A stretch of 64,000 nt of DNA from assembly GCF_026151205.1 (NCBI RefSeq), contig NC_087072.1, forward strand, positions 22,895,603 to 22,959,602, written 5' to 3'. Source of the stretch: Bolinopsis microptera (taxonomy: Eukaryota; Ctenophora; Tentaculata; Lobata; Bolinopsidae). Under the pieces are notes generated by a model, which did not search any database, was not told the DNA's origin, and saw only the letters and a program-made list of their open reading frames with translations. Position numbers and translations under genes: made by a program. Of this stretch, positions 9,001 through 63,302 are shown piece after piece. Positions within the stretch are counted from its first letter, which is position 1, and every line of letters starts with the position of its first letter.

Positions 9001-12000
9001 CAGAGTTTAATGAAAGAATGAGTCATTTTATTTTAAGACATTTATAAAAGCTCAGTTCAACAAATCTGAAACATTTCAGTTCAAGGATGCATGTCTGTTG
9101 AATATATATATATATATTGAAATTGCTTATTGATTATAAATATTATTGTATTATATATAAGAAAGTTAATGTTTTTAATTTAAGCATTTAGATTTTATCG
9201 TACCAAAATAACAGTATATACCAAGTTAGGAAACGATTGAACCGGGAAAACTTTACTGAACCCGAACAAACCCTTTTTTATTGCTAAACCAAACCCTGAA
9301 CCGAAATGAATGTTATAGGCTTGGTGCGGCTAATGATCAATTATCATTATCTCGGTTATTTTATGATTTATGATCAACATCTGACTGAAGCAATGGATTT
9401 TAATTAACTCCTGAACCAAGCAGAACCTATATATCAGTCGTTTCCTATACACAATTTTTTGCTGTGTTCACTTTAAACGATCAAATGTGTATTTTTGTTT
9501 TGTTTTAATATATTGTTGTCCGGTCAAAAAACTATGGTATGTTTAAATCAAAGAATATTAATCGAGTCAAAATATTTACACAGAAAAAACTCAAAAACTT
9601 ATTATTTTCTTCGTCTGCAGTTCTTATAAAATCCTAACTTTAAACCCAGTATCACCATCGACAAACATCGAAATGTCCATTTCTTACGGTAAACAGAACT
9701 AAAGTAGAACTGTTGAAAGAAAATCGCATCGTTAGATCTCCAGATATACGCTTTGGAACCACTACACTGAAAACCACCGAATTGGATATATTTTTTGTGT
9801 TTAAGGTAATATCTTAAATGTGGCACATAGAAACTCGCCCAAACTTACACAGATTACTCGTCCTATAACCACCATACTTTATGGAAAGTTTCAAGAAAAT
9901 CACACTGTAGGATCCGACATAAACTATTGTCCAAATAACCTATATTCTGAGTCGGACAGATGTCGCTGTCGGACAGATGTCGCCCAATCAGTTTCCAGAG
10001 ACCTTCCAACCCTCTTCCTCCGAGCCTTTATCTGGGACATTATCCGGGGATTTGCTATGAAGTAAATGAGGGGATTGAGGATACAATCAGCGTGATAGAG
10101 AGTCACCGTGAAGATCTGTGCGGCTTCGTAGGACATCCGGAGGTGTAGTGTAAAAAATAGGATCTGCGGTGTTACGATAAGGATCCCAGAGAAAACGATG
10201 GCAGAGGTTGTGACGAGAAGCCGGCCCACTTTAATTTTGTGTCTGTACATTGAGATAAATATCATCAAGTACATCAAAACTATGAGAAGTAGTGGTGTCA
10301 CCAACGTCATAATCGGGAGCAAAGGTCGACGATCATCGAATATACATCGACCATAATTTCTATGGTATTCTACTGCCATCGTTCCTGCTAAAAATGCTAT
10401 CGGATCGTGTATGAGGTGGGTTATCGCCATCGGTGCCCACGACAGTATGATCATCACTAGGGTAACTCTGGGGGTGATCAACTTGCTGTATTTGTGTGGG
10501 AACACCAGAGCTACAAACCAGTCGATGGTTAGTGGAAGTTTGGTGAACATTATTGAGCTCCAAACAAAATAAGCCAGAAAGACGAAAATGTAGCACCATG
10601 CGTTTACTGATCCATCTTCGTTGACGCCAACAACTTTCTTTGAGATGAAGCCCAATCCTCTTATCATAGCCACTATCCCAATCAGTGCATCATTGACAGC
10701 AACGTTCGTCATAAACATCTTTTTCGGTCCTGGTAGTTTTATCACGTCGAACTTGAAGCACAGTAGAAGAGCACTGCTCATGAAGAATCCGATAAAACCT
10801 ATCCCAGTCAAGCAGCTGCCGTTGACAAGAACAAACGTGCAATCTTGATAAGAACAGGTTGTGTTCTTGATGTTGAATCCCATCCTATCTTACAAGTCGA
10901 AAGACTGAAAACATGATATTATATTATCTTCTATTTGTTTTTAAATAATATATTCGAGTTCTAGTCACAATGAGAAATGTCTACACGAAAAATTATTAAG
11001 AAATTAATCTACTGTGATAATTTGATCATGAACCACTATAGTTAAATATACTATAATATAGCACTCCTGTCTGTCTATCAATAGTAGAAGTTAGAAAGAC
11101 ATCGCGAGTAGGGGTTTATACACACGATGGGTGAGATCCAGTGTTACGCCCTTCCTTGCTGGGCCGTGACTAAGGTCTACCACAGGGATGGCAGCTATAG
11201 TGTCCAATGAACCATACAAAACAAGTAGAGTTCTCAACACCATACAATGAGATTTACAGTACTATGGGGGTCAGGAAGTGGCAGCCCTCAGGTTCCACTA
11301 AATAAGGAGAAACGGGGGACTGCCTTTCAACTGTGCACTGAAGTAAGCTCATAGCTGTATGCTTTCTACCCTCAAATTACAATAGAGTAACTCGTATGGT
11401 GTAATTACGCAAACCTCCATTTACCGCGGCTTTTTCCTTTCTCCCAAACTGCGCGGTTAATCGGGGTATTACTGTAGTTGTTTGAATGAAAAGTTCCACT
11501 TAATGACCAATGACCATGTGAAAACTGCAGAAATTGTACGGAGGCTCTTAGTACTCAGTAATCAGTATGCGTATTTTCCCAGATCTTGAAATTGAAGCTC
11601 ACTTTGTTAGCTTAAACGGAAAAATAACGGAAAAACTCATGTTAAACAATACCTGGCAGTAATTGGTAATGAATGGCGTTCCTCTTGTTGCTGATATTAA
11701 ATGTAGGCGGTGTTTGGTAGTCTAGCCAGTAGACGTATGAGCTTGCGTGGTATTTAAAGCCAGCAATCTCAAAAGTCAAGGATAGAATACAAGTTGCTCG
11801 GTGAAGAACAAAAGGTCGCATTATTTTCAATTTTGTTGATCATATTATATTGGCAAAATTGGTTCCCATGGCCATGGAAATGAGACAGTGGTTTGTTGTA
11901 TCAAATATTAAATCCGCGCAGGTGTATCACTACATATACGGACGAGTCAGGCCTGTTCTCAACGGAGCCTCTTGAGGATGTTGTGGAGGCAGCACCTGAG

Positions 12001-29930: not shown

Positions 29931-31070
29931 ATGAGCCACTCTAATAGTAATCTTACCATGAAGATGGACACGCTCATTTTCAAAGGAGTCTTCTTCAGCC
30001 TATCCCCGGTTAATATCACTCTGGGTATCGTGGTGGTGGTACATAACATAATCATCTTTGGAAACTACTACAAGGACAAAACCAAATTAATAGCCGGTTT
30101 ATTCATGGGTATCGCTATGGCGGACATTCTGAAAGCACAAGGAGAAATTGTAATGGCAGTAGTGAGTATTCTGGTTAATATGGGACTGGTTGGACAAGAA
30201 GCTCTGTATAAGAGCTTGCTTTACTACATGGTCACTGCTCTACCTGGGGTCAACTGGTCTAAGCTCTTCAATCTAGCCATGACCGTCACCCTGACTGTCA
30301 AACTCGTGAAACCATTCGACAGAATTAACACTTCGCGTCTAAAGATAGTCCTTGCTCTCTGCTGTGCAGTTATAACCTTGCTGCACATCTCAGACATGGT
30401 GGCAATCTTGGTGTTTTTCGAAAGTAATATTCCTCTTGCTTTCATCACCAAGGTTTTTCGCTATCTCGTTGAAGGTTTCAACTTCCCGGGACTGCCCACC
30501 ATAGTTGCGGTGCTTTGCATGCCAGACCAGAATGGAGTATCAAAATGTGCCAGGTCTAATAACAAAATAGAACTCCAAAGCAAGTACAATTGCTTGTTGT
30601 ACATATATGTTATTTTTTACTTCATTTGCATCCCCCTTGTTGTCCTTATCTGCATGATAATTCAGATAAGATATTTGAAGGGGATGCTCCAACAAAATTC
30701 AACCTCTTCATCTATCTCCAGCACAGCCAATCATGTTACAGTCACTGTCTTTTGGGTGTCTGTCCTTTTCTTTTTGTGCAATGCAGCTTACTTCCTGCTG
30801 GTGATGGTTTGGCACCATTTTGACCACATTGATTACGTCCACAGTGACCGGTTTTGGGTGAATGTTGGGATTGTGTTTGGGTTGGCAGAGTTTACACTCC
30901 CCCTGATGTATGCGTTGATCTACCCAATCATTCTGATAAGTAGAAAACCGGAGCTGAGAGAAAGATACGTCGGGTACTGGAGAAGGATCACCAGCTGCTG
31001 TGGACTGAGATGTCTCAACAACAGTAGCACTGAGGGTACTGGAGAAGGATCACCAGCTGCTGTGGATTGA
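29931..31070 (+). CDS. Putative orphan seven-transmembrane receptor, intronless
   Basis: A 379-residue, single-exon 7TM protein. TM1 includes VNITLGIVVVVHNIIIFGNY. TM2 has Asp in AMADILKAQGEI. TM3 is followed by a VKLVKPFDR segment where DRY is expected. TM5 is LLYIYVIFYFICIPLVVLIC. TM6 is VFWVSVLFFLCNAAYFL. TM7 ends in LPLMYALIYPIILI, so NPxxY is degenerate (ALIYP). The loop between TM5 and TM6 is short and Ser-rich; the tail is basic (KPELRERYVGYWRR) and then Cys-rich. The family placement is looser than for the other two receptors, but seven hydrophobic helices with class A-like landmarks are clear. The start is the first ATG of the frame. The last about 33 codons lie in a 62-bp minisatellite. 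Confidence 0.8.
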   Translation: MSHSNSNLTMKMDTLIFKGVFFSLSPVNITLGIVVVVHNIIIFGNYYKDKTKLIAGLFMGIAMADILKAQGEIVMAVVSILVNMGLVGQEALYKSLLYYMVTALPGVNWSKLFNLAMTVTLTVKLVKPFDRINTSRLKIVLALCCAVITLLHISDMVAILVFFESNIPLAFITKVFRYLVEGFNFPGLPTIVAVLCMPDQNGVSKCARSNNKIELQSKYNCLLYIYVIFYFICIPLVVLICMIIQIRYLKGMLQQNSTSSSISSTANHVTVTVFWVSVLFFLCNAAYFLLVMVWHHFDHIDYVHSDRFWVNVGIVFGLAEFTLPLMYALIYPIILISRKPELRERYVGYWRRITSCCGLRCLNNSSTEGTGEGSPAAVD

Positions 31071-35400: not shown

Positions 35401-38400
35401 TTATGTTTCAAACTAATTACAACACTACAAATCTATTACATTTATTGAGGTATGAGATATGATAGACGAGCGTAAGTGTTGACGTGCAAAGGACTGCTGT
35501 GAGTGTACTTGAAGATTACTCATCCTCCTCCTTCTCATCAAAACTATTCTCATCAAAACTACTATCTGGACTGAAGGTATTGCGTTTACAGTGTTTATTG
35601 TGCTTCTGAACATTGAACTCTTGATAATATAACTATGTCAAATAATCAGAGCTCAGACATTAGTCTCCACTTTTGTGAGCGCCCTTTAGAACATTTGAAC
35701 TTTTCATTCCAGTCTGAAAAATCAGAGAACTGTAACAATTGTCTGTCAAAAGACATCAAGATTGACTTTTTAGAAAAAAAGTTGTCTTTATTGAATGAAA
35801 TTATCAGAACTAGTGATCTCATTGCTCAGTACAATGATAGTCTCATATCAGATCAAATTCAAATACAAGAACAGAGTTTTAAGTGTGAAAATTTGCTGCC
35901 GAACTTATCAGAGGAGATTGAATGTGAGATCATAACCATTACCCCTCAGTCACACGTTGTTATCAATCAAGTAGAAGCGTTTGATGTAGATGACATTGTT
36001 GTGGAAGATGTTGTATCGGACAGTTTGTTTGTTGACAACAATGTCGTGGACAAGGTTGTTCCACAGGAGGTTGTTGGAAACGAGATTGTTATCAGTGAGA
36101 TTGTTGTTAACGAGGTTATGGCAGACGAGGATGATGTGTCTGATCTCCCTGTATCTACTGCTACTGGTGAATCACGGATCAACACCCCTAAGCCCAGAGA
36201 CAAATATCCAAACTTGGTCCCTGCCCCTGTCTACGATCCTATAACACCGGGGCCAATGAATATATCTGTAACTTGTTCCCCATCACCAGTGAAACCAGTT
36301 ACCCTACTAGATGATGGTCCATTCTCTAAATTTTCACTTGATCTATTAATGGAAGAACTTGAGTTCAGTCACGGTTTTAAAAACAGGAAATCGGTTTATT
36401 TTGGTGACTTTCCCTATGAGTATTCAGGTGCAACACATGACCCAAAAAGTGTACACAATGATTCCTACCTTGCTAAACTCAGCTCCTACATTAATGTGAT
36501 ATTACCCAATTTCAGACACAATAGTATTCTCGTCAATCTATATGAAACTGGAGCAGAGTTCATGCCAGCTCATAGCGATTCTGAATCATGTATTGTAGAA
36601 CACTCTGATATTGTAACCATTTCACTTGGTGCGACGAGAACACTGCAAATTAGATCAAACGGCAGCAATGAAGTTGTGGGCTCTGTGCAGCTTCAGCATG
36701 GAGATGTCTTCATCATGTCCAAATTGTCTCAGGCTGACTTTCAACATGAGATACTGCCAGACGAAATGTGTGATGAACCCCGGATCAGCATCACCCTAAG
36801 ACTGATGAAGCCCCCTAGGATCACTCAGTCAACTGAGTTTGGTCTGCGTTCACCGCCCCCACCCATCCCTCATTCAGGACACAAACTGACAGACTCTTCT
36901 TCACCTGCACTCTCAGTTTGCAAACAGCCAGCCAAAGCTTCACAAAAGTCTGTCCTATTCATAAGCAGCTCTATGTTCAGGTTTCTTGATGCGGACAAGT
37001 TATCATCGTCCACTGTTAGTGCTAGTAAACTGTTTTATCCTGGGGCTGATGCCAAAGTAATGTTAAATAAACTAAAAACTGACCTACACTCCGTTCCATC
37101 CCCATCTATTATTTATATTATGACAGGAACTAATAATGTGAACACAGTCTATTTTGGCTCAAAGTCACTGAAGGATGCAGCGGGTGACATTAGTAATCTC
37201 TTAAATTATCTCAAGTCAGTGTATCCGAATGCAACAATTAATGTTCTCAATATTCTTCCCAGGAGTACAAAAGGCCGCAATGATGTTGTGGCAGAGCTGA
37301 ATAAGGTTATTAAGGATATGTGTAGCAAAGATTCTTGTTTTAATTACATTAGCACCCATAATTTATTTAACTATAATAGAAGTGGATTCAGGAAAGAATT
37401 TTATTTTGCCAGACCATCTGCAAAAATATCTGATAACTGTCACCTCAATACAAGCGGTGTTATTCGACTTGCTAAATTTCTGAAGTATTGGGCCCATAAG
37501 CAAGTTTGAATTTTCAGAAAGATTGTTAACATTTATTTCATCTAGATTCTAGATAAGGGATAATTACACATTGTTCCTCATGTTTATTGAAGTTTTAGAA
37601 AGTTTTGTTATTATCTCATACAAATTTGCCAGTTCTGCAATTTATCTTATTCTGACAAGTTTATAGCAGCATAAATTGGAAAAATTTTCATGCTCTCACA
37701 GCAGTTCTTGCATTAACCCGTGCATTAGTAAAATCACAGTTTCATACCATGCCAAAAAGCTTGCAGTGGGACATTGCAACATGCAGGGAGGACTAACAGG
37801 TATGCCAAAATGTCTTGAAATCCAAGATCTAATCTGGAAAGAGAAATTAGATGTTTTATGCCTGAATGAAACAAATCTTAAGTCGGATATTGACTCAGCC
37901 AGTCTAAACCTACCCAAGAATTTTACTTTTATCCGCAAAGACCGTCCTAACGACAATGGTCATGGGGGATGTGGCATTCTCATCAGTGAGCACATAAAGT
38001 TTAAAATGATTCAACTAAACTTAGTTTTGCAATATGACCAAATCGAGGCTATTTGGATCCATCTTACAGATTGCAATATTTTCATCTGCTGTTTCTACAG
38101 ATCTGAGTTGTTTAGTCCTCTTGACAAATTTTTAGATTATATGACAGACTGCATGATGAGTATAGGAAGTAAGAATGTTATTTGGCTGGGTGATGTAAAT
38201 GTAGACCAAAACAACATCAGCAGTATGAACTATAAGAAATTAGACATTACAATGAAAATGTTTGGAATGGTACAGGTAGTTCAGGATATTACCCGCATTG
38301 CTAAACTAGGAAACAGAATCACAAAGACCACAATCGATGTTGTCATAACAAACACTTACTCCAAGTTTCTTGACTGCAAAGTCCTTGATGATTGTATAGG

Positions 38401-41400
38401 AGATCATCAGGTCGTAAAGTTCATTGTCGATTTCAATGTGCATAAGGCCTCAAAATTCAAGAAGTTACTAATAAGAGATCACAGCAAAATGAATGTTACT
38501 GCTCTTAAAGAATTTTTGGAAACCTGTGATTATAGACCAATAATAGATTCAACTAGTCTGAATGATGCAGTTGATGGTTTAAACGAACATATTGATCACT
38601 ACTATGATCACTTCTGTCCAATTAAACAAATTAAGTGCCATAGTGATTACATCCATAAGCCATCTCCAGAATTTTTAGAAAGTAAGAAATTGAAAGGGAA
38701 ACTTTACCGTAAATTTTTAACACACAACAAGAACAGACGTATACATCCAAATGGTGTTATACACTGTAATAAATGTGACTCATTATGGATGGCATATAAA
38801 CGGCAGAGAAACTATTCAACCTATTTGTCTAGAATTAATAGGAAGACTAACTTAGCAACAGAACTGAAAGCCAAGTGTGCCATGAATGATCTAAAGGGTG
38901 TATGGAAAACGATAAAGACAGCATCAAATCTGCCTGTTAAAGCTAACAATATCAATAACAACCTTGATGCTGAAACCACCAATAAATATTTTGCTGAAAT
39001 AGGTCCAAAGATCCAAGCAGAAGTGCAGCTGGAAAATGAAAATGAATTTCTATCTTATCTACAAAATGAGCAGATTGACAACGAGACCAGCTTGAATAGC
39101 TTTACTGAAATAACTGAGTCCAATATCTTAGACTATGTGGCAAGTATCCCTTGTAGCAAATCCACTAATGATCATATACCATTGAGAGTGTTTAGACAAA
39201 TTTTACCTGCATTTATTGCTCCATTAACACATCTTGTAAATTTGAGTTTATCCAGTGGCATCATGCCAAACAGCTGCAAGGTTGCAAAAGTCACCCCAAT
39301 CCATAAGGATGGTGATACTGAGAATCCTAGTAATTATCGACCAATCTCAATTTTACCGATTCTTGGAAAGTGCATCGAATTTTGTGTGAACTCCCAACTG
39401 ACTCAATATCTTGATGAAAAGGGAATACTTTCAGAGCATCAATATGGTTTCCGTAAAGATCACTCTACAACTTATCTCATGTTAGATCTGTTTGATCGTA
39501 TATTTACTGCTAAGAACAGTGCCAAGCATCCTGCAATTATCTTCCTGGACATCAGAAAGGCATTTGATACTGTTAACCATGATATTCTCATTCAAAAGCT
39601 GAAGCATTATGGAATAAAAGATACTGCATTGAGCTGGTTTAGGAGCTTCCTCACAGATAGATTACAGCAAACTAGAGTTGGGAGTAGGATAAGCAGTTTA
39701 CATTCATTGAACTCTGGAGTGCCTCAAGGAAGTATATTAGGACCAATTCTATTCAGCATTTTTATCAATGACCTGCCTAATGCATGCCTATTTTCTAAAC
39801 CTTATCTATTTGCTGATGACGGTGCATTATATTTTGACAATATATCTAGAGGAAACTATGGTAACATCAAACAAGAGTTGAAATTAGTTATCAGATGGCT
39901 TCAGGCTAATAAACTATCCCTGAATAATGAAAAAACAAAACTAATGATCCTTGACTCTAAGCCTAACCTTGATGCCATCCTTGTTGAAATTTGTGATGAC
40001 CTTACTTTGGTAATCTGTGAAACTAAATCCCATAAGTACCTTGGACTTATAGTTGACAGCAGATTGACATTTAATGAACATATTGATAACATTAAGAAAA
40101 AGATATCCAAAAGAATTGGTGCTATGTATAGATCAAAAAAACTTCTCCCTCTTAAGTTCAGGAAGATGTTTGCTAATGCACTTATGTTGCCACATTTTGA
40201 CTACTTAGACACCATCTGGTCAAGAACATATAAAAAACGACTAGGAGAGTTAGATATCATGTACAAAAAGGTTGCTAAAATAGCCCTAGATGTAAACATC
40301 AGAGAGAGGTCGGTTAATGTATACAAAAATATGGGATGGCTTCCTCTCCATTTGAGACGACAGGTTCATCTTAGCTCATATATGTACCGTATAATCAATG
40401 AAACATGTCCAAAGCATTTTATCGGGAAATTCTCGTATATTTCTGGTGGATCACGTGAGGCAGAAAACTGCAATCTTTATACTCCTAAATCAAGATCTCA
40501 CAAGGAGTTTAACTATCTAGGAACTAAGGCCTGGAACATATTACCAAAGTCCCTTAGAGAGTGTGACGACGTTAAGAAATTTTCTAAGTTATACAAAGAA
40601 ACTCTTATGAATATGTTGCTAACTGATGAGAATTACCAAGGGGATAACTCTTACGATAAATTCATGATCCCACCCAACACTAGCCAATGTATCTAGGCAG
40701 TTATGTTATTTCGGTTAAGTTATCTCAGTACATAAGTGAATCCAATCTATCCCCTGCAATCAAAGTATTTCCATGCCTATTAAGCTATTACAGGAAATTA
40801 GGAACATCAGTGGAAAGGTGCACTGTCAATCATTATTGCTCCATACCTCCAGTCCTCCTGTTATGTGCAATTCTCACTGTATGCTCCTCATTTGTATCAA
40901 TTATATTGATGCTACATTGTTATTGAATATGAAATAATTTTCAACCGTATTAATTTATTAACTTATTGTAAATAGCAAGTTTGACAAAGGGATTACGTTT
41001 ATTTTACCCGGAGTTCGTTTAAGTTTAGTATTGTAAATAGTTAATTTGACGAAGGGAATACGTCTATTTTACCCTGAGTTATGTTTTAGTTCAATCTTGA
41101 CACAATTTTAAAATTATAATTTAATTATTTTATATATATGTATTGTCCATAACTAGGGTGGCCTGCTAACAGAACCATGATCTGCCTTGATTCATCCTTC
41201 AGCACAGAGAAAAGCTCCTTTTTTTATACATTATGATTACAGAGGATCTGATATTTAGATATATATTGCTGTGCTGTAAAAATTGACTTTATTTATTTAT
41301 TTATTTATTTACTAAAGTTAGTGACATTAAATGTTTTTTCTGAACGCCCTTGAATCACGTCATCGCAAATCGATTTTTTAAAAGGAAACTGCGATAAATG

Positions 41401-47365: not shown

Positions 47366-50314
47366 TCATTTCTTCCCGTGTCCATGCAAATTTGGGGCAG
47401 AAATCTTAACTTTACCAGGAATATTTACGGTCATATCAACATCTTTCAAACTCTTGAACACATTCTTTTCTTGTAACAAAGCATTTTTGTCTCTAGTGAA
47501 CATATCTAGAATGGTCTTACATGCTTTCCCCTTCTTAGTTGCACCAGGTGTCAATTTCACTCTGTATTTACAAGACGACATGGAATTGTATGGAGCAACA
47601 AAAGGAATTCCAAATAAAATAGTGTCTGAAGGTAATGGGTTGCGTACAAGAGAATCGAGAATGTCAATGGGCTCATCCTCGTTATCACTTAAGTCAATTT
47701 CTAATGTTGGAGCAGGTTTCGATGGCTGTACTTTGGGTTGAACATCTTCAGTGCCCATAGTTTTTGCAACATTTTCTTTATCAGTGTTGTCAGGTTCATT
47801 GGCTTCTTTTTTTACTTCTACAATTTCATCTTCTTCTTCTTTTAAGTCTTTGGTCAATGTTTGCAATACCCTGTCTGCTTCACTAAGCTTTACTTTCTCA
47901 ACTTCCCCTTTGTATCCTGCAACAACATTTTTGGCAGTCGATGTAGCTCGGTACTTCAATTTAGAGTTACTAGACCCAGTCTTACCCTTGCCTTTTTTAT
48001 TACCAGCTGACCCTAATAAAGCCATCATTGCCTCTCTCTCGTCATCGCTCTGGTCTTCATACTTCTCCATTCTCTTTTTCTTCCCCTTCTGCCCTCTTTT
48101 AGGCCGGTTATCACACTTCTTTGGTTCAGAAACATTTTTTCCATGAGATGGTTTCTTTGGTTCTTGTTTCTTCTTGTAAGAAGGATTGTGGGCAGTTCCA
48201 ACGAATTCAGTGAATTCAGACTGCTCTATTTCTGGTTCCGGCACTGCCGATATGTGAAGATTGTATTTATCAAACAGTTCCTCAAGAACATCCTCATCAC
48301 CTTTATTGATCAATGTATTTTCATTCGCATCACTATCAGGATCAGATTGTTCTAGTTCAAGATCTGCTTCTTCTGGCACATCAGTCTCCAATTTGGCTTC
48401 AATTTTAATCTCAACTTTGTCGTTGTTATGGAAAGATGGCTCCTGAGAAACTTTTCTTCTTTCTTCCACACTTTCATCATCGATTTTGAATAGCACAGAA
48501 AAGCCAAGAATGTGTTGTGCTGGGGGGAGGTAATTTTTCTTTCCTCTTATCATGAAACTTCCAGTGGTTAAGTACTCTCCAGTTGGGGCAGTTTTAGAAA
48601 CCTGCTCAGCATGAACCCAGTATGCACTTGTAACAATCTTGTTATTCCATGCTGAACTTTGGCAAAGAGCAAAACATCCTGCTTCCATCATGGTTTTTGG
48701 TGGTAGTGGATCACTTGACTTGTTCTTAACAATGATCGATGTGGCACCATGAATATCAGCATGAACATATGAATCATTTTTCTTGAGATATTTCTTTACC
48801 AAAATTTCGTTCTGTGTGGCATCCCTACCACCTATAATTATGTAACCTTCTGAACTTATAAACCACAAAAACTTCTCAAACCAAAGCATCTTTCTTGCCT
48901 TTTTTATTGATGCTACAATATTTATATCTTTTATTGTTGCCTGAGTTTTCTTTTCAGCATTCTTCAGAGCAACAGCAGATGACTGGATTGTCTTTTCCTC
49001 TTTTACAGCAGACTGTTTCACCTGGTCAAAATACTGTTTAGCATTGCTGTAAGCACCCATAGCCAAATCTATGTCAACATCAACAGCAACCACCTCTTCT
49101 TCGAATGGATCTTTAAGTGACATAGTCATTTTGTTGTTCTGTAAGTTTATTTTTCTTATTGCCAGAGCTGCTTGGTGATTACTTTCTTTACCCTCTTGAA
49201 CCAGTTCATCTATCTCTTCCCAGGACAGACGATTAGCAACCAGATTTTGAATGGTATTAATCGCTTCTTCAACACATTCTAGGTTAACTTCTATCAAATA
49301 AGCTTTGTTGGCTGAATCTTCTTGCACGTTTTTCAAGACTTTTATTCTATTTTCATGATCAGTTTTGATATTCTCTAACTTTTTCATGACATTCTTTTCT
49401 TTCTGCACTGATTTTATTTCAATCTTCTGGGTCTCCTGTTCATAGAAAAATACATCAATAGCATCATTGTATGATGGAAACTCCTTCGATTCCATTGATG
49501 TGCACTGATCAAACACAATTGGATGAAATTCGTCCATTACTGAATCAGTGGCACTGCTTTTAACCTTTTTGAAGAATATGAATCCACTCTTTAATGTCAA
49601 CGGAAGAGAACTAAACTTGCAGTGTGCAACTTCCATTGATTTTTGAATTTGGGAAAGATTGTCCAAGACACTACTTTCATTGATTTTCTCGTTAGCATCC
49701 ATACCATTTTCTCTCAAACAATGTTCTATGAGGGGAATGCTATATGGAAACATGAAATTAAGCCACCGCTTAAGCTGTGTGTTGGGTTTAATGTCACTTG
49801 TATTACTGTTCATAATTTCCATGTTTGGACTTGTTAAAGTCTGACAAACTTCAAAAGGATAGAAATGACCAACTGCATATCTGATATCCTCCTTTTCATC
49901 TTCTCTTGTCCTTAATATAGCAGTGATCATATACTGATCGTTACAAAGACATATGTTTCCTTTGTCATAAAGTTCAATAATTAAATGGGAAGAAAACTCT
50001 TCACTTCCAAACTTCAGATCTACAATTCTATCACAACCAATTTGAGAGACACTTGTTAACCTCTTGTTCCTCATAACTTTTCTACATTTAGCCGAAAATG
50101 GGGAAGGTATCATTTGTTTTGGCCATTCAAAGGCAGTCAAATGAATTCTAGAACCTGATTCTATATACAACATCGATTTCACCTCTTGTCCAAACTTGAT
50201 GATATATGATTTGTTGTTTATGTCGTAGACATTGATAACACGCAGATCTTGAACTTTTGATTTAAGTTCGCTGACAATGCATGCAACATCGAAGGAGTTA
50301 AACTTGATCTTCAT
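47366..50314 (-). CDS. NEMF: NEMF (Rqc2/NFACT family), ribosome-associated quality control factor
   Basis: 982 residues in one exon; human NEMF is about 1076. It binds 60S subunits carrying stalled nascent chains, works with Listerin, and adds C-terminal tails using tRNA. NFACT-N lies at the N-terminus (NVYDINNKSYIIK, FEWPKQMIPSPFSAKCRK, CDRIVDLKFG). Asp9 and the Asp95-Arg96 pair match residues known to be needed for tailing in the family. Central coiled coils lie near residues 300–345 and 430–475. NFACT-R is at about 475–590 (WFEKFLWFISSEGYIIIGGR, HADIHGATS, SKTAPTGEYLTTGSFMIRGK). An acidic/basic linker follows with KKRMEKYEDQSDDERE and LLGSAG. NFACT-C is at the end (YRVKLTPGATKKGKA, NIPGKVKISAPNL). 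The sequence TTATTTTTTAG just before GATATAGG-ATG looks like a 5'UTR splice acceptor. It lies upstream of TMEM214 on the same strand. Confidence 0.96.
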   Translation of the reverse strand: MKIKFNSFDVACIVSELKSKVQDLRVINVYDINNKSYIIKFGQEVKSMLYIESGSRIHLTAFEWPKQMIPSPFSAKCRKVMRNKRLTSVSQIGCDRIVDLKFGSEEFSSHLIIELYDKGNICLCNDQYMITAILRTREDEKEDIRYAVGHFYPFEVCQTLTSPNMEIMNSNTSDIKPNTQLKRWLNFMFPYSIPLIEHCLRENGMDANEKINESSVLDNLSQIQKSMEVAHCKFSSLPLTLKSGFIFFKKVKSSATDSVMDEFHPIVFDQCTSMESKEFPSYNDAIDVFFYEQETQKIEIKSVQKEKNVMKKLENIKTDHENRIKVLKNVQEDSANKAYLIEVNLECVEEAINTIQNLVANRLSWEEIDELVQEGKESNHQAALAIRKINLQNNKMTMSLKDPFEEEVVAVDVDIDLAMGAYSNAKQYFDQVKQSAVKEEKTIQSSAVALKNAEKKTQATIKDINIVASIKKARKMLWFEKFLWFISSEGYIIIGGRDATQNEILVKKYLKKNDSYVHADIHGATSIIVKNKSSDPLPPKTMMEAGCFALCQSSAWNNKIVTSAYWVHAEQVSKTAPTGEYLTTGSFMIRGKKNYLPPAQHILGFSVLFKIDDESVEERRKVSQEPSFHNNDKVEIKIEAKLETDVPEEADLELEQSDPDSDANENTLINKGDEDVLEELFDKYNLHISAVPEPEIEQSEFTEFVGTAHNPSYKKKQEPKKPSHGKNVSEPKKCDNRPKRGQKGKKKRMEKYEDQSDDEREAMMALLGSAGNKKGKGKTGSSNSKLKYRATSTAKNVVAGYKGEVEKVKLSEADRVLQTLTKDLKEEEDEIVEVKKEANEPDNTDKENVAKTMGTEDVQPKVQPSKPAPTLEIDLSDNEDEPIDILDSLVRNPLPSDTILFGIPFVAPYNSMSSCKYRVKLTPGATKKGKACKTILDMFTRDKNALLQEKNVFKSLKDVDMTVNIPGKVKISAPNLHGHGKK

Positions 50315-52656: not shown

Positions 52657-53790
52657 ATGGGGGAAGACAAAGTCCCTAGGTTAACAGATACAACGTGTTA
52701 TGGGGATTGGAAGAGAAGGGTTACTGTATGGGAAGTCTCAACGAGCACAACTAAGAACAAGAGAGCAGCTACCCTTATAACGTGTATGAGCGGTAGACCA
52801 GAGCAGGCTGCTATCCAACTCAAAATCGACGATTTGAAAGGAGAAGATGGAGTAAAGAAACTGATAGCAGAAATGGACAAACTGTTCCTACCAGACAATA
52901 CCCAGCAAGTGTTTAACGCTTTGGATGCTTTTTTGGAGTATAAAAGACCAGCTGATCTATCTATGGAAGACTACTGCAGGGAGTTTCACTACAAGAAGAA
53001 AATAGCAGAACAGATGAGCGACAAGACAGACATGTTTGATGATGGTGTCCTTGGCTATTTCCTACTCAAGAACAGTGGTCTTGAACAGAACAGTATGACC
53101 TTAATTAGAGCTACAGTGACGAAGCTCGAGCTCAGTTTGGTGGAAGGAGCTTTGAAGAGAACGTTTGGAACAGGACTATCAGGTACGCTGATGGGTTCTT
53201 CGGGACTGGGAACATCAGCTATGTCGATTAAACAAGAAGTGATGTACAATCGACACTCTTCAAGCGAGACTGATCAGTCAGGGGACTGTTCCTCAAGAAA
53301 TGCATCTACATCGCTCACTAGTTCAGATGAGGCAGAGAACGAGACCTTCTACAACAAAGACTCAAAATCGTATGGAAACAGAGGATCATACCATGGTTAT
53401 AAGGCAGGAAACAGTTTCAGCTCAAGAGGTAACTACAGAGGTAACTACAGCGGTGACTACAGAGGCAGAGGTAATTACCAAGGGAACTACAGCAACAGAG
53501 GAGGCAGATACGGCAGCAGAGGGGGTTCCAACTTCAGGGGAAGAGGAAAGTACAGTGTCCAGAACAACCAGCAGAACAACAGGAAGGATCAGAACTTTGT
53601 TTGTTTCTGGTGCGGGGGTGAAGGACATAAGATTGCAGACTGTCCCAAGAGACTAGCTGAGAAGTCTACGCAATACTTCCAGTCCTTGCTAACGTCCAAA
53701 ACAGTGAGACTTTCTTGTGCCATAAGACCTACAACGGTGCCTTGTTGGATTCAGGCGCTAGTGCTACAGTTTGTGGGGAACAGTGGATGA
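52657..53790 (+). CDS. Copia Gag with RGG-rich region and CCHC knuckle
   Basis: A 377-residue ORF. The N-terminal two thirds fit a copia Gag (UBN2-like: opening WKRRV, LEYKRPADLSMEDYCREF). Then comes a Ser-rich linker, a Gly/Arg/Tyr-rich stretch at about residues 240–310 with many RG and GNY units, and a CCHC zinc knuckle (CFWCGGEGHKIADC) near 319–332. The final 40 codons after the knuckle look out of frame, since the protease continues in frame 3. Gag forms the particle and binds RNA. Confidence 0.9.
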   Translation: MGEDKVPRLTDTTCYGDWKRRVTVWEVSTSTTKNKRAATLITCMSGRPEQAAIQLKIDDLKGEDGVKKLIAEMDKLFLPDNTQQVFNALDAFLEYKRPADLSMEDYCREFHYKKKIAEQMSDKTDMFDDGVLGYFLLKNSGLEQNSMTLIRATVTKLELSLVEGALKRTFGTGLSGTLMGSSGLGTSAMSIKQEVMYNRHSSSETDQSGDCSSRNASTSLTSSDEAENETFYNKDSKSYGNRGSYHGYKAGNSFSSRGNYRGNYSGDYRGRGNYQGNYSNRGGRYGSRGGSNFRGRGKYSVQNNQQNNRKDQNFVCFWCGGEGHKIADCPKRLAEKSTQYFQSLLTSKTVRLSCAIRPTTVPCWIQALVLQFVGNSG

Positions 53791-54017
53791 CGAAGTTTGA
53801 GTATTCACTGACGACTAGGGAGAAGAAACTGGTGCAAGAAGAGCCGTGTCATCAAGTGTTCAGATTTGGTGACAGTGACCCCATCATATGTACGACGAGG
53901 AAGAACATACCCATAACCATCTGTGGGAATGATATCATGCTATGGACATACGTTGTGGAGAGTGACGTACCTTACTCTTGTCCAGAACAACTATGTCAAA
54001 GATGGGCTGTCAGATAG
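53691..54017 (+). CDS. Copia protease segment (frame 3)
   Basis: The open frame carries the aspartic protease active site ALLDSGASATVCG (Asp codon at 53748). It is in the −1 frame relative to gag and overlaps its tail (53691–53790). It is a segment of pol, not a separate gene. Coding similarity stops near 53970, where the rest of pol continues in frame 2. The transition is consistent with loss of one base in a short T-run, or a frameshift signal. Confidence 0.85.
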   Translation, partial: NVQNSETFLCHKTYNGALLDSGASATVCGEQWMTKFEYSLTTREKKLVQEEPCHQVFRFGDSDPIICTTRKNIPITICGNDIMLWTYVVESDVPYSCPEQLCQRWAVR

Positions 54018-57000
54018 ATTTCCAGAGGAGCGAAATCAAGGTATTTGGACGGACAAAGAAGCTTGTTATAACAGATTCTGGTCACATGATTATCCCCTTC
54101 GAAGCCAGAAAAGTGATCAAGTGTGATGAACCAGAACCAAGCCCAAAGACTAAGCCAGCTTCAACTGATCAAGCATCATACATTGTAGATTTGGAGAATA
54201 GTAAAAAGACGGCAGAACATCTACACAAGTATTTTGCCCACGGATCTGCTAACAAGATCAAAGAAGTTGTGTTAGAGTCAAGCTTGGAGAAGAAGAGCGA
54301 AGTGTGCAAAGAGCTTGATCTTATAGAAAAATCTTGTGATCAATGCCTGAGACACAAGAGTAAGAAGATACCGCATAGAAAAGTTGCTCTACCTGCAGGG
54401 AAAGCTTTCAACGAAAGAGTTGCGATGGATCTAAAGATGCTTGAGTCTGGGGATACTATTTTGCACATGATCGATTGTGTAACCCGATATGCAATGGCGA
54501 TCAGTGTAAAGAGCAAAACAGCTACTGAAATACTGGAGAAAATATTCAGAGTCTGGATCTCAGTATTTGGAAGACCTGGTCAGTTCTTAACTGACAACGG
54601 AGGAGAGTTTGTCAATCAAGAGTTTAACGAGATGTGCCAACTACTTGACATCGTTATCTCCACTAGTCCTGCAGAATCACCTTTCTGTAACGGTATGGTT
54701 GAGCGCCATAATGGCATCCTGGGAAAGATGATAGACTCAACTATGGGAGACACAGGATGTAGCTTGGAAACTGCGATTTCCTGGTCTGTAAATGCCAAGA
54801 ACACACTGACTAACGTGCAAGGATTCTCCCCAAGTCAGCTAGTGTTCGGCTACAATCCTAGCAACAGCAGCTTACTTGATGAAAGACTGAAGCTATCAGT
54901 CCTTAAGACTGAAACTACAAGCAAGTTGGTAGCTAATATGATAAACGCCAGGGATACAGCAAGAAAGAAGTTTGTACAACTTGAGAACACCAGCACCATC
55001 AAGAAAGCTCTTACTGAACGTGTGTATGCAGGGAGGAATAAACAGTATAAGAATGGAGATAATGTTTATTTCAAACGTGAGAAAAGCAAGTCATGGCAAG
55101 GACCTGCTGTGGTAGTTGGACAGATTGACAACATAATTGTTATCAAGCATGGGGGACTGCTATATCGTGTCCATCCTTGCAAGATAATAGAGAAGCACGA
55201 GGCTGACAGTCAGATTAATGGGGATGCAGAAGAAGGAAAATCTGATCAGTTGGAGGAGCCTGACACAGCAGCTGTCAAACGAATGCTATCAACACTGGAT
55301 AGTGATGCAGATCCAGATTCTGATAGCAACTACGACATCCTTGAACCCAGTGACTTGGTTCAAGAGCTGGAAGAAGACGAGATTCAAAGACCCTCGGAAG
55401 AACAGAGTCAGGTGGGAGTTGGAGGACAAAAACCCTCTGAAAAGCAGAATCAGACGGGAGTTGGAGTTCCCAGAATGAGCCAGAACGCTGCTAAGCCTAA
55501 TACAGGAAGTACACCTTCGCAATCCAGCGGATGGAAGCCTGTGCCAACTTCTAACGGAAAGTTGAAACTGAAGAAAGATGATGTGATACGGTACAAGAAT
55601 AGTAATGAAGAAGAATGGAAAAATGGTATCATCATCGGCAGAGCTGGTAAGGCTACTGGGAAGATGAAGAACGAGTTTAACATCTTGACAGAAGATATAG
55701 AAGACCCAGAACCCATACTGCTTGATAAAGTTGAGGTTGAGGTACAAGGTACCTACCACCTTGTAACGGATGTTGAAAAGGACGACCCAGCTCTCATCAA
55801 GGCTAAAGAGGAGGAGATCAAGAGATTTCAAGAATTCGACGTGTTTGTTGAAGTTAAAGACCATGGACAAACCAGTGTAACGTCTAGGTGGGTCATAACT
55901 TCAAAAGGAGATGGAAAGTACAAGGCAAGACTAGTTGCCAGAGGATTCCAAGAAGAACTTAACGGACAGTCCGATGCTCCGACTGTGAATAAAATTAGTA
56001 AGAGGCTCATGTTCACAGTTGCTGCATGCCGAAAATGGGAAGTAAAGAGTTTAGATGTAACAAGTGCTTTTCTCCAAGCAGATGAACTCGACAGGGAGAT
56101 TTTTGTCAAACCACCAACTGACATAAGGAGAAAAGGCATTGTTTGGAAGCTAAAGAAACCACTTTACGGTTTGGGTGATAGTGCTAGAAGATGGTATCTA
56201 ACTTTAAGAGATAGACTCATAGAGGCTGGATGTGTTATCTCAGTTCTAGATCAGTCAGTATTCAGGTACTATGATGAGAGGAATAGTTTGTGTGGTATCA
56301 TAGTAACCCACGTTGATGATCTACTGTATGCTGGGAACACCAAGTTCCAGAGAGAGATTATGAGAAAAGTACTGTCATCCTTCAAGATATCAAGAATGAA
56401 CGGAAAAGATTTCACATACCTTGGATGGTCAATAACTCAAGAAGATGGTTACATATCTGTGAATCAGCGAGAATACTGCAAGTCCATTGAACCTGTAACT
56501 GTCAACTCAAAATCGCCTAAAGACAGTGAGCGTTTCTTGAATGATTCAGAGAAGACCAAATATCAAGAAACATTGGGGAAGTTGTTATGGCTAAGTAGTC
56601 AAACCAGACCTGACCTCAGCTATGACACGATGGAACTGTCGACCTACACAAGTTCAGCTAAAGTCAAACACCTCAGTATTCTTAACAAGGTCGTTAAGAA
56701 AGTTAACTATGGACCCCAAGAGATCAAATATACCGAAATGGATATTGATCAAGGTGAACTGCAAGTAATATTCTACTCAGATGCCAGTTTGGGTAACCTG
56801 CCCAACAAGATAGACAGTGGGAGAGGCTATCTAGTCTTTATATCTGATGGAAGGCGAGCTTCACTTGTTGCCTGGTCTAGTAACAAGATCAAGAGGGTAG
56901 TTCACTCTGTGTTTGGAGCAGAAACTTTGGGATGTGTAGATGGTTGTTCAGCAGCCATTTATGTCAGACAACTGATATCAGAGATACTCTACGATGATCC

Positions 57001-57253
57001 TACAAAGGCAGTCATACCTATTGTTGGATATGTGGATTCCAATCAGCTTTACCAACAGGTTACATCTACAAAACAGTGTCTAGACATGAGAATGAGGCTA
57101 GACATAGCTGGTATCAGACAGACAGTGAAATCAGGAGAAGTTCAAGCTATCAAGTGGATTCCTACTAAAGAGATGCTTGCTGATTGTCTCACAAAGAAGA
57201 ACGCAGACTGCAGTAAACTGAAGATCACTCTTGAGAGAGGAAGATTCTGTTGA
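53978..57253 (+). CDS. Copia Pol: integrase, reverse transcriptase, RNase H
   Basis: 1091 codons from the first candidate start. The real frame starts a few codons earlier, in continuity with protease. GAG-pre-integrase zinc site: H83, H88, C120, C123. Integrase catalytic triad: D151 (VAMDL), D206 (LTDNGGEF) and E242 (MVERHN), the last two separated by 35 residues. A copia RT follows (KARLVARGFQE, LDVTSAFLQA, active-site HVDDLLYAG). RNase H has FYSDASLG, GAETLG, GYVDSNQL and the terminal WIPTKEMLADCLTK. All catalytic residues are present in this frame, so the enzymes look intact except for the frame breaks upstream. Confidence 0.93.
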   Translation: MSRTTMSKMGCQIDFQRSEIKVFGRTKKLVITDSGHMIIPFEARKVIKCDEPEPSPKTKPASTDQASYIVDLENSKKTAEHLHKYFAHGSANKIKEVVLESSLEKKSEVCKELDLIEKSCDQCLRHKSKKIPHRKVALPAGKAFNERVAMDLKMLESGDTILHMIDCVTRYAMAISVKSKTATEILEKIFRVWISVFGRPGQFLTDNGGEFVNQEFNEMCQLLDIVISTSPAESPFCNGMVERHNGILGKMIDSTMGDTGCSLETAISWSVNAKNTLTNVQGFSPSQLVFGYNPSNSSLLDERLKLSVLKTETTSKLVANMINARDTARKKFVQLENTSTIKKALTERVYAGRNKQYKNGDNVYFKREKSKSWQGPAVVVGQIDNIIVIKHGGLLYRVHPCKIIEKHEADSQINGDAEEGKSDQLEEPDTAAVKRMLSTLDSDADPDSDSNYDILEPSDLVQELEEDEIQRPSEEQSQVGVGGQKPSEKQNQTGVGVPRMSQNAAKPNTGSTPSQSSGWKPVPTSNGKLKLKKDDVIRYKNSNEEEWKNGIIIGRAGKATGKMKNEFNILTEDIEDPEPILLDKVEVEVQGTYHLVTDVEKDDPALIKAKEEEIKRFQEFDVFVEVKDHGQTSVTSRWVITSKGDGKYKARLVARGFQEELNGQSDAPTVNKISKRLMFTVAACRKWEVKSLDVTSAFLQADELDREIFVKPPTDIRRKGIVWKLKKPLYGLGDSARRWYLTLRDRLIEAGCVISVLDQSVFRYYDERNSLCGIIVTHVDDLLYAGNTKFQREIMRKVLSSFKISRMNGKDFTYLGWSITQEDGYISVNQREYCKSIEPVTVNSKSPKDSERFLNDSEKTKYQETLGKLLWLSSQTRPDLSYDTMELSTYTSSAKVKHLSILNKVVKKVNYGPQEIKYTEMDIDQGELQVIFYSDASLGNLPNKIDSGRGYLVFISDGRRASLVAWSSNKIKRVVHSVFGAETLGCVDGCSAAIYVRQLISEILYDDPTKAVIPIVGYVDSNQLYQQVTSTKQCLDMRMRLDIAGIRQTVKSGEVQAIKWIPTKEMLADCLTKKNADCSKLKITLERGRFC

Positions 57254-60404: not shown

Positions 60405-63302
60405 TCAATCAAATGCTAGAGAAAAGAAGTATGTTTTAAGTTTGGTCTTGAAAGATGTAACTGACTCAGCTGATCTTATGTCGTATGGCAAGGAATTAAA
60501 TACTTTAACTGCACAGTGACTAAAAGCTTTCTCTGTGTTTACATAGTTAGGAGAGGGCGGAAAACTAAGGTAAAAATAATCATTATCAAGACGTACATTT
60601 TTAAAACTTTGCTGCCTAGGAGATATCAACTCTTTTAAGTAAGGAGGAGCTATATTATTTAAACACTTGTAGGCAAGTAGGGCAATCTTAAAATCTATTC
60701 TAAATCTAACTGGTAGAAAATGAACTTTCTTAAGTAGTGGAGTAGTGTGTGCCTTTCTTCCTCTCCCGAAAATAAATCTTACAGCAGAATTTTGCACCTT
60801 CTGTAAACGACTTAAATCATAAGAGCTCAGTCCAAAATATACGCTATTGCAATAATCAATTCTAGAGAGTACTAGAGCATGAACAAGCTGAATCTTAAGG
60901 TTAAAAGACAGTTTTGATGCAATAAACCACAAATTTCTGATCTGAATATTACATGCTTGAACCACTGACGTAATCTGATCACTCATTGAAAGATAACTGT
61001 CCAAATACAGCCCAAGACTCTTCACAGTTCCACTAACAACATGTGGCTCTTGATCCTTAACAATCTGTAGAGAGGCTGGAATATTTTTTGAGTCAAATTT
61101 AGAGGATATAACGATGACTTCAGTCTTAGAAGAATTCAGTTGAAGGAAATTGTTTGTCATCCATTTCTTGATATCAGACATACAGTGTTCCATATTGTGC
61201 TCTAGCTGTGATGGGTCATCAGAATCAAGAGTGAAATACAGCTGGGTGTCATCAGCATACAAATGAATACAGCACCCATGCATACTTGCAATGTTCTCAA
61301 GATCTTTGGTGTACAATATGAATAGCAGGGGGCCAAGGATTGAACCTTGTGGCACACCTATCTCAAGAACAGTTGATGAGGAAGACGAATCCTGGACTTT
61401 GACACAAAATGAACGGTTAGCCAAGTAGGACCTGATCCATGTAAGAGCAATGCCTGTAATGCCATAAGCAGATCTTAGCTTCTTGATTAATCTTGGGTGA
61501 TTGACAGTATCAAAGGCAGCACTCAAATCTAGAAGTAAAAGAACAACTTTAGTTTTCTTGTCAATAGTTATCAAGATGTCGTTATGGATTCTGGTTGTTG
61601 CAGTTTCACAGCTATGAAACTTCCTATAGCCGGACTGAACTTTAGAAAGCAAGTTGTTATCCTCAAGATAACTGGTTAGCTGTATAGATACACACTTCTC
61701 AATGATTTTTGACAAGAATGAGAGATTGCTAATAGGCCTATAGTTAGATAGAGATTCACCGTCAAGGCCACGTTTCTTCAAACTTGGACGAATGAGAGCC
61801 TCCTTAAGTTTTATAGGAAACTCACCTTTAACTAATGATTCATTGACTATAAATGAGATCAGAGGAAGGAGTTCTGGGAGACACTTGATGAGAATCTTTG
61901 TAGGTATGGGGTCAAGATCACAGAATTTGTTGGACATATTCTTTATGATGCTTACTAGTTCCTCATCAGACACATGACGGAATTGTACTATCTTTGGGCT
62001 ATTAGAAAGAGGAACAGATTCATCTGAGTTAGGAGAATCTTCAAGGGATTGTTGTTCTAAATAAATGTTGTTGTATATGTTGTCGACCTTTGATTTAAAG
62101 AACTGTGCAAAGTTGTTAGCACTCTCAAGATTTGAAGAGCAAGAAGGTGTAGTAGTACTAACTTTTTCTTTATTGAGCAACTTATTAACGATGGAATAAG
62201 TCTTTTTAGCATCACCTGCACTATCTTGTAACCTTGTTTTGTAGAAGTGATCTCTTGTGGATACAATGACTGAGGATGCTCTCTCTGATGCTTTCCTGTA
62301 CAGTCGTTTATAATCTGGGCAATCATGATTCTTTTGATACAGTCTCTCAATCTTTCTTCTCATTGCTTTTGCTTGTTGACAGTGTGTAGACCACCATTCA
62401 GCGTTATGATCTTTTCTTGGGATGAAAGTTTTTTCTTTAGCATGCTTGTCCAAAATACTGCTCAACTCAGACTCATAGATATCAACTGCACTATCGAGGT
62501 CATTGAAGCAATCAGTGTCACATAGTTTTGACTTAAGAATGTCCTCAACAAAAGCATCTAGGTCTATGCAAGCAATGTTTCTGTAAGTAATTGGTTCTAG
62601 AGTGCCTATGGGTGCTGGAGATACATTGCAATTAAAAGCAACAAAGTAGTGGTCAGACGATGTGCCAGAATCAGTAATGACAGGATCTAGAACTTCAATG
62701 CAATCGTGAGTAAAAGAACCATCCCTGGTAATTACAAGATCTAATATGCCCCCATCTCTGTGTGTTGCAGCTGAAATTTGTTGCACCCACCCACAAGACT
62801 TAAGTAGTGAATTAAACCTTTGTGCAACTGAATCATTTTCGTCTTCAATGTGGATATTAAAATCACCCATGATCAAGGGCTTTCCAGGTTTGTCTACTAA
62901 ATCAACCAAGAGTTGCTCAAAGTCAGTTAGAAATTGGGGGATGTTAGCACTCTGAGATGTGGAGGTGCCAGAACGGTAAATTGAAACAATTCGTAGTATA
63001 TCTCCAGAAGATGATTTGAAGGTACATTCACAAGACTCAAACGTTTTGAATCGCTTGCACTTCTGAGGAGTCACTTTAAGACTTTTCTTATATAGAACAG
63101 CAACACCTCCTCCCCGCCCAGCTCTTGGCTGGCTATGAATGGAATATCCAAGTTCTTTCATCTCAGAAAACTTAGCATTGTCATCTTTTCTCAGCCAAGT
63201 TTCTGTAACACAGCAAATATCCGTATCAAAGTCTTCAAGCAATTGCATGACTCCAGCAGTTTTATTGCATATGGATCTGCAATTGAACAGGGCAAAGTTC
63301 AT
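60405..63302 (-). CDS. LINE ORF2: endonuclease and reverse transcriptase
   Basis: 965 residues with an ATG start 30 nt after the ORF1 remnant's stop. The APE endonuclease has LFNCRS (catalytic Asn7), CVTETWL (Glu34), GRGGGVAVL, IMGDFNIH, ILDLVIT and SSDHYFV. The RT has LKKRGLDG, NYRPISNLSFLSK, LLDLSAAFDTVNH, GVPQGSILGPLLF and the LYADDTQLYF active site. The C-terminal HFLPVRFRIDFKIALLAYK region and a Ser/Pro-rich end fit CR1/L2/Rex relatives. No internal stop. It is clearly a different family from the LINE at 35–41 kb. Confidence 0.94.
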   Translation of the reverse strand: MNFALFNCRSICNKTAGVMQLLEDFDTDICCVTETWLRKDDNAKFSEMKELGYSIHSQPRAGRGGGVAVLYKKSLKVTPQKCKRFKTFESCECTFKSSSGDILRIVSIYRSGTSTSQSANIPQFLTDFEQLLVDLVDKPGKPLIMGDFNIHIEDENDSVAQRFNSLLKSCGWVQQISAATHRDGGILDLVITRDGSFTHDCIEVLDPVITDSGTSSDHYFVAFNCNVSPAPIGTLEPITYRNIACIDLDAFVEDILKSKLCDTDCFNDLDSAVDIYESELSSILDKHAKEKTFIPRKDHNAEWWSTHCQQAKAMRRKIERLYQKNHDCPDYKRLYRKASERASSVIVSTRDHFYKTRLQDSAGDAKKTYSIVNKLLNKEKVSTTTPSCSSNLESANNFAQFFKSKVDNIYNNIYLEQQSLEDSPNSDESVPLSNSPKIVQFRHVSDEELVSIIKNMSNKFCDLDPIPTKILIKCLPELLPLISFIVNESLVKGEFPIKLKEALIRPSLKKRGLDGESLSNYRPISNLSFLSKIIEKCVSIQLTSYLEDNNLLSKVQSGYRKFHSCETATTRIHNDILITIDKKTKVVLLLLDLSAAFDTVNHPRLIKKLRSAYGITGIALTWIRSYLANRSFCVKVQDSSSSSTVLEIGVPQGSILGPLLFILYTKDLENIASMHGCCIHLYADDTQLYFTLDSDDPSQLEHNMEHCMSDIKKWMTNNFLQLNSSKTEVIVISSKFDSKNIPASLQIVKDQEPHVVSGTVKSLGLYLDSYLSMSDQITSVVQACNIQIRNLWFIASKLSFNLKIQLVHALVLSRIDYCNSVYFGLSSYDLSRLQKVQNSAVRFIFGRGRKAHTTPLLKKVHFLPVRFRIDFKIALLAYKCLNNIAPPYLKELISPRQQSFKNVRLDNDYFYLSFPPSPNYVNTEKAFSHCAVKVFNSLPYDIRSAESVTSFKTKLKTYFFSLAFD

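Follow-up and report, generated by a model that had tools for sequence, protein, structure and literature searches.

An AlkB-type oxygenase domain joined to an SGNH hydrolase in the ORF1 of LINE families, and in Helitrons, of the ctenophore Bolinopsis microptera

The stretch of DNA analyzed here (the window) covers 64,000 nt of the Bolinopsis microptera contig NC_087072.1 and carries a LINE whose ORF1 codes for an AlkB-type dioxygenase domain followed by an SGNH hydrolase domain (Table 1). The preliminary description had reported ORF1 as an intact frame of 624 codons at 35635-37509, with sequence landmarks of both enzymes. Re-reading returned the frame exactly as described and found every landmark in place, with NLYETG at residues 301-306, H313-S-D315, H371 and R383-I-S-I-T-L-R389 in the AlkB part, and TGTNN at 497-501 and DNCHLN at 600-605 in the SGNH part.

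Table 1. Coordinates of the LINE copy in the window, of its domains and motifs, and of Helitron loci elsewhere in the genome
Feature	Position	Strand	Remarks or basis
Whole LINE copy, family F1	35410..41311	+	5' UTR, ORF1, ORF2, 3' UTR, (TTTA)n tail; 5.9 kb
ORF1	35635..37509	+	624 aa, AlkB + SGNH, uninterrupted from ATG to stop
N-terminal Cys-x-x-Cys (C33, C36) and predicted long helix 37-82	35731..35880	+	alignment, AlphaFold
AlkB-type 2OG-Fe(II) dioxygenase domain, residues 217-393	36283..36813	+	Pfam, AlphaFold, fold comparison
Fe(II) ligands H313, D315	36571..36579	+	invariant, 15 and 16 family representatives
Fe(II) ligand H371	36745..36747	+	invariant, family representatives
2OG-binding motif R383-x-S-x-T-x-R389	36781..36801	+	invariant in every element copy
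SGNH hydrolase/esterase domain, residues 437-624	36943..37506	+	fold Z about 19 (PAF-AH), PF13472
SGNH catalytic S446, G498, N500, D600, H603	36970..37443	+	ORF1 alignment
ORF2	37676..40696	+	endonuclease about 37820-38416, reverse transcriptase about 39299-40051
(TTTA)6 3' tail	41288..41311	+	copy ends
Loci with PF13532 and PF14214 in one frame	C10:16.88M, C12:2.47M, C3:14.44M, C12:8.34M, C9:11.09M, C9:15.87M		
Giant-Rep Helitrons with SGNH and AlkB at the start	L039, L040; C9:15866686-15872640, C3:14437531-14443593, C12:8333845-8338713		

Comparison of copies defines both ends of the element. Similarity among several unrelated loci stops 225 nt upstream of ORF1, while most of 40 copies align as far as position 41311. 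Since these boundaries are shared, the copy in the window is a complete non-LTR retrotransposon of roughly 5.9 kb. No clear target-site duplication flanks the F1 copy, where merely a 4-nt chance match was seen. ORF2 matches the Pfam models for the EEP endonuclease (E 1.9e-4) and reverse transcriptase (RVT_1, 6.3e-37). With its ORF1 and ORF2, APE-type endonuclease and reverse transcriptase, lack of LTRs, short tandem 3' tail and 5'-truncated copies, F1 is an APE-type non-LTR retrotransposon of the Jockey superfamily (CR1/L2/Jockey). We note that the ORF2 frame opens at 37667 just past a TAG and that no ATG occurs in it ahead of the endonuclease motif; the ORF2 frames of families F2 and F3 resemble it in this ATG-less start. 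Translation of F1 ORF2 may start by reinitiation or use a non-AUG codon.

Several other features lie in the window. On the minus strand at 60405-63302, a second, different LINE is represented by an ORF2 of 965 aa with endonuclease and reverse transcriptase, and no intact ORF1 for it was found in the 700 nt of upstream window. A Ty1/copia-like element occupies 52657-57253 (+), with a gag-like ORF of 377 aa bearing a CCHC knuckle and a pol ORF of 1091 aa bearing integrase and reverse transcriptase motifs. An intronless 982-aa ORF at 47366-50314 (-) resembles NEMF/Rqc2, a factor of ribosome quality control, and three single-exon ORFs are GPCR-like (7590-8822, +; 9924-10883, -; 29931-31070, +).

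Within ORF1, PF13532 (AlkB-type 2OG-Fe(II) oxygenase) matches residues 261-389 with 66.9 bits (E 3.6e-18), the curated cut-off being 31.2 bits. The SGNH/GDSL matches are weak and below cut-off, PF13472 reaching E 8.6e-5 over residues 477-614. An AlphaFold2 model of ORF1, built from 16 ORF1 relatives of the same genome, is confident at residues 220-392 and 438-622; the rest, save for a long N-terminal helix, is poorly defined. Modeled alone, the AlkB domain reaches a pLDDT of 94.7 and a pTM of 0.90 and adopts the double-stranded beta-helix of the AlkB family. It superimposes on human ALKBH2 with Z 24.1 (1.6 A over 170 residues) and on ALKBH3 with ssDNA with Z 22.6 (1.9 A over 171 residues), whereas E. 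coli AlkB, ALKBH5 and FTO fall well under these at Z about 16-17. The structural match to AlkB that the preliminary description had put forward as a check is therefore obtained, at Z 22-24 against the two human enzymes. The identity of the C-terminal domain is settled by its predicted structure, which matches PAF acetylhydrolase and other SGNH hydrolases with Z about 19; in SGNH block I, the GD-S motif reads S-S-S in families F1-F5. Helix 37-82, modeled with a pLDDT of just about 50-60, is likely a coiled coil, and C33 and C36 ahead of it are almost invariant in the alignment of 16 ORF1s. ORF1 is a two-enzyme protein made up of (I) an N-terminal region that is probably coiled-coil, (II) a catalytically intact AlkB domain of the ALKBH3/ALKBH2 type, and (III) an SGNH esterase. 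The proposed combination of AlkB and SGNH in a LINE ORF1 is confirmed by Pfam for AlkB, by predicted fold for both domains, and by the further families described below.

The genome assembly searched comprises 264.65 Mb in 232 contigs, and nearly all matches fall on 13 contigs of 15-26 Mb; copy and locus counts from this search are lower bounds. Family F1 has at least 19 further ORF1 copies that are full-length, intact and 98-100% identical, plus shorter or broken ones, and PF13532 is found at at least 150 genomic places, all of them, among the matches listed, exceeding the curated cut-off. Inspection of 25 LINE loci sorted them into 14 families (F1-F14), in each of which a single ORF codes for AlkB and, after it, SGNH; some few of the loci are truncated. 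In nearly all LINE cuts inspected, ORF2 starts directly downstream on the same strand. Further copies with the same ORF1-ORF2 order, which the preliminary description had suggested looking for, hence exist in F1 and in 13 other families, and every full ORF1 copy retrieved has AlkB, contrary to the case of AlkB-less copies that it had named as telling against its reading.

The families differ in their remaining layout. A PHD-like zinc finger lies in ORF1 of F7, F8, F10 and F12 and at the start of ORF2 in other families, while F9 (L047, L052-L054) combines an N-terminal AlkB domain, a long coiled-coil stretch and SGNH with an ORF2 of a different kind. One F4 copy (L035:4128-6800, -) is broken within ORF2 by a look-alike of a Penelope-like retroelement with the reverse transcriptase motif RYIDDG. 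SGNH/GDSL ORFs with frames of 455-523 aa are also numerous in the genome (e.g., C10:13661524, C2:13102744 and C1:21774942), a large class at 478-523 aa among them, with no AlkB among the matches listed. These are possibly plain-esterase LINE ORF1s and, as such, natural AlkB-less comparators; AlkB may not be needed by every SGNH-type element.

Alignment of 16 ORF1s reveals 25 invariant columns, which include H313, D315, H371, R383, S385, T387 and R389; the SGNH residues S446, G498, N500 and H603 are likewise invariant. The AlkB catalytic residues, among them the complete Fe(II) triad H-x-D...H, do not vary across the 25 LINE and 2 Helitron sequences compared, and ORF1s that keep all Fe(II)/2OG ligands are merely 20-38% identical to the ORF1 in the window.

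The preliminary description had predicted purifying selection on the domain and its catalytic residues, and both predictions held. Between well-diverged subfamily pairs, AlkB dN/dS ranges from 0.049 to 0.23 (0.049 for L052/L053 and L052/L054, 0.055 for L053/L054, 0.125 for L036/L048, 0.19 for the Helitron pair, and 0.23 for L044/L056 and L058/L059). These values are usually under those of flanking parts of the same protein, several pairs showing AlkB as the ORF1 region under the tightest constraint, and they lie below the N-terminal value in all pairs for which both could be estimated. Closely similar pairs within F2 and F6 give 0.30-0.52, on few changes that are little informative. A comparison of 20 F1 copies finds 3 nonsynonymous and 9 synonymous variants in the AlkB domain, zero stops, and zero variants at the catalytic codons. 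The resulting pN/pS of 0.09 (binomial p 1e-4 for so few nonsynonymous changes) compares with 0.51 in the N-terminal part and 0.31 in SGNH, and the contrast between AlkB and the rest of ORF1 is borderline (Fisher p 0.05). The copies were chosen as best matches, which biases the sample to intact ones but should change the contrast between domains little. Purifying selection thus keeps the AlkB domain in place in many LINE families and in Helitrons.

The Helitrons came to light at two loci, L039 and L040, where Pfam places AlkB in very long frames. An open stretch of 2339 aa at L039 holds Lipase_GDSL_2, 2OG-FeII_Oxy_2, DUF6570 and Helitron_like_N together, the last being the Rep domain (PF14214, E 3.4e-22). 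The two loci are identified as Helitrons by this Rep domain, within 10-kb cuts that stop ahead of the helicase. Genome-wide, among 38 PF14214 matches, PF13532 and PF14214 share one open frame at no fewer than six loci, and both lie near each other at two more. Helitrons of this genome, which are transposons unrelated to LINEs, thus employ both of these enzymes as well, in the order SGNH-AlkB, which is the reverse of LINE ORF1. In the giant Rep protein, long low-complexity Pro/Ala and tandem-repeat linkers separate the domains.

Sequence comparison places the element AlkBs near ALKBH3 and ALKBH2. Against solved structures, phmmer ranks human ALKBH3 (8.7e-15) above ALKBH2 (1.9e-6) and E. coli AlkB (0.003) for ORF1. 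A profile of element AlkBs gives 1e-30 for ALKBH3, 1e-25 for ALKBH2, 1.5e-13 for ALKBH8, 2e-11 for AlkB, 1e-4 for a nematode 6mA demethylase, 0.01 for ALKBH1 and 0.04 for ALKBH5; FTO has no sequence match with this profile. The m6A erasers ALKBH5 and FTO are therefore not the closest relatives, and membership in their subfamily is disfavored by sequence (0.04 for ALKBH5 against 1e-30 for ALKBH3). A single-protein search of viral contigs returned no relatives.

In AlkB trees, the host ORF L041 groups with human ALKBH2 and the host ORF L042 with human ALKBH3. The LINE and Helitron AlkBs other than F9 form one clade (99/97, or 100/99 with F9 omitted), which F9 joins weakly (88/80). The elements hence stand as a clade of their own outside human and host ALKBH3. 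The preliminary description had suggested a phylogeny against ALKBH8 and ALKBH2; of these, ALKBH2 is the nearer by profile, but the trees keep the elements apart from it. L043, a second ALKBH3-like host ORF beside L042, is intronless with a long branch and could be a lineage-specific duplicate.

Two sequence features further set the elements apart. The 2OG motif R-x-N-x-x-x-R retains both arginines throughout, yet reads R-x-S-x-T-x-R in all elements as against R-x-N-x-T-x-R in L041-L043 and E. coli AlkB. Serine at this position also occurs in ALKBH8 and viral AlkBs, and the swap is a conservative variant. The VFG hydrophobic finger, with which ALKBH2 probes dsDNA and flips bases, is present in host L041 and absent from all element AlkBs compared.

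Monophyly of the LINE AlkBs with the Helitrons outside is rejected by the AU test when F9 is included (p 0.0056 and 0.0225), whereas without F9 it is not rejected (p 0.31); long branches are in play. In the SGNH tree, the Helitron SGNH groups with no LINE family, and this, together with the reversed domain order, leaves a joint transfer of AlkB and SGNH unsupported. The simplest account of these relationships would be one capture of an ancestral ALKBH2/3-like gene, perhaps with a second capture in F9, after which the domain was exchanged between the two element classes.

We infer that the ORF1 AlkB acts as an oxidative demethylase. The ORF1 proteins of LINEs are RNA-binding chaperones that cover the RNA of their own element, and they are mostly regarded as RNA packagers; Helitrons go through single-stranded DNA. 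Both m1A and m3C, which block Watson-Crick pairing and halt reverse transcription, are repaired by ALKBH3 in single-stranded DNA or RNA and by ALKBH2 in double-stranded DNA. The best explanation as a whole, to which we give about an even chance, may be that a self-carried demethylase cleans the element's own single-stranded RNA or DNA. The ORF1 protein would accompany its RNA in the ribonucleoprotein, and AlkB would remove m1A/m3C-type base methylation, whether placed by enzymes or caused by alkylation damage, from the RNA template and first-strand cDNA of the LINE or from the single-stranded DNA of the Helitron. Left in place, such Watson-Crick-face lesions would stop reverse transcriptase or a host polymerase, and the new copy would be shortened or aborted. 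An element-borne demethylase acting in this manner would fit LINEs and Helitrons alike, since both expose single strands, and a purely RNA-template account is less general because AlkB also sits in Helitrons. Weighing against this reading are the serine in the 2OG motif of all elements, the SGNH ORFs without a listed AlkB match, and the borderline contrast between AlkB and the rest of ORF1 in F1.

As to the substrate class, kinship favors m1A/m3C carried on single strands rather than m6A. The profile ranks ALKBH3 and ALKBH2 far above ALKBH5, which points to substrates of their type, and the lack of the VFG finger from all element AlkBs suggests a single-strand preference. An alternative in which AlkB strips host-written m6A from element mRNA, evading m6A readers that silence or sequester it, would also cover both LINEs and Helitrons, with mRNA as the target, and an AlkB encoded by an orchid Ty3/Gypsy element, for which such a role has been proposed, does bind RNA and demethylate m6A in vitro (PMC9289625). 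MT-A70 writer-type and YTH reader-type genes are present in the host genome. We nevertheless consider this alternative unlikely, the domain being ALKBH3/ALKBH2-like, remote from ALKBH5 in sequence (E 0.04), and closer in fold to ALKBH2 (Z 24) than to ALKBH5 and FTO (Z about 16). Action on element DNA or cDNA (m3dC arising as a by-product of the host DNA methyltransferase, m1dA or 6mA), keeping chromosomal or new copies unsilenced and replicable, is rather unlikely. It would agree with ALKBH2 as the nearest fold, with the PHD fingers in ORF1 or ORF2 of several families, with the Helitron being a DNA element, and with the presence of a DNA methylase gene in the genome; the missing VFG dsDNA finger and the known role of LINE ORF1 proteins as RNA-binding chaperones speak against it. 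With MT-A70, YTH and DNA methylase genes in the host, no rival fails for want of a writer.

A non-catalytic or non-nucleic-acid role, with the AlkB fold serving as a binding module or protein modifier, finds a parallel in some cellular AlkB homologs that modify proteins. We regard it as improbable: a fold used only for binding could do without the full set of Fe(II)/2OG ligands, which are invariant even at the low ORF1 identities given above, nor does the role sit well with AlkB being the part of ORF1 under the strongest constraint in several pairs. An artifact, in which a LINE has broken into a host AlkB gene or been wrongly joined to it in the assembly, is practically excluded: 19 more intact copies, nearly identical and sharing their ends, lie on different chromosomes, and 13 other families exist. 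Demethylation of the element's own single strands thus stays the preferred reading.

An intact demethylase in ORF1 over many families would mean that these elements meet a real obstacle in chemically modified templates or intermediates, and a catalytic mutant in a retrotransposition assay would give a direct handle on it. The related module in Helitrons ties RNA-based to DNA-based elements, and we note that transposons can inflate counts of 'ALKBH genes' in such genomes. More broadly, and only tentatively, base methylation or alkylation might, in this animal lineage, act as a defense against mobile elements, or a steady hazard for them, which LINEs and Helitrons counter with a shared, self-carried AlkB module in their ribonucleoprotein or transposition complex. 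The module would then be an animal, transposon-borne equivalent of the viral AlkBs, able to pass from one class of element to another.

Among open-access papers we found no report of an AlkB-bearing LINE or Helitron; prior annotation in Repbase or subscription journals is possible. Similarly to human ALKBH3 and ALKBH2, their top sequence and fold matches, the element domains have the cofactor-binding core, and they differ in lacking the ALKBH2 VFG finger, in the S-for-N swap of the 2OG motif and in forming their own clade. Plant RNA virus replicases likewise provide mobile elements with an AlkB of close predicted fold, thought to repair RNA; these viral domains are replicase-fused, in systems without reverse transcription or integration.

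The ORF1 architecture itself has a relative in the type IV ORF1 of CR1/L2-lineage LINEs such as zebrafish ZfL2-1, in which an SGNH esterase lies upstream of the endonuclease-reverse transcriptase ORF2 (PMC3905857, PMC4120745); in PMC4120745 the esterase ORF1 turned up in vertebrate groups only. Both share the SGNH esterase, an N-terminal coiled coil or zinc finger and, in related families, PHD, whereas neither PMC3905857 nor PMC4120745 mentions an AlkB or oxygenase domain. In bdelloid rotifer retroelements, a GDSL esterase and a DEDDy exonuclease are enzyme modules common to unrelated classes, without AlkB (PMC5408684); in contrast, the sharing observed here links a retroelement with a DNA transposon of the rolling-circle type. 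The closest precedent for an AlkB-bearing LINE or Helitron is the Phalaenopsis Ty3/Gypsy retroelement, which carries its own AlkB, an enzyme that demethylates m6A in RNA (PMC9289625). There, the domain sits in a separate extra ORF of an LTR element and is kin to plant RNA demethylases (PMC9289625), whereas in Bolinopsis it is ALKBH3/2-like, fused to SGNH in a LINE ORF1, spread over many families, and found in Helitrons too.
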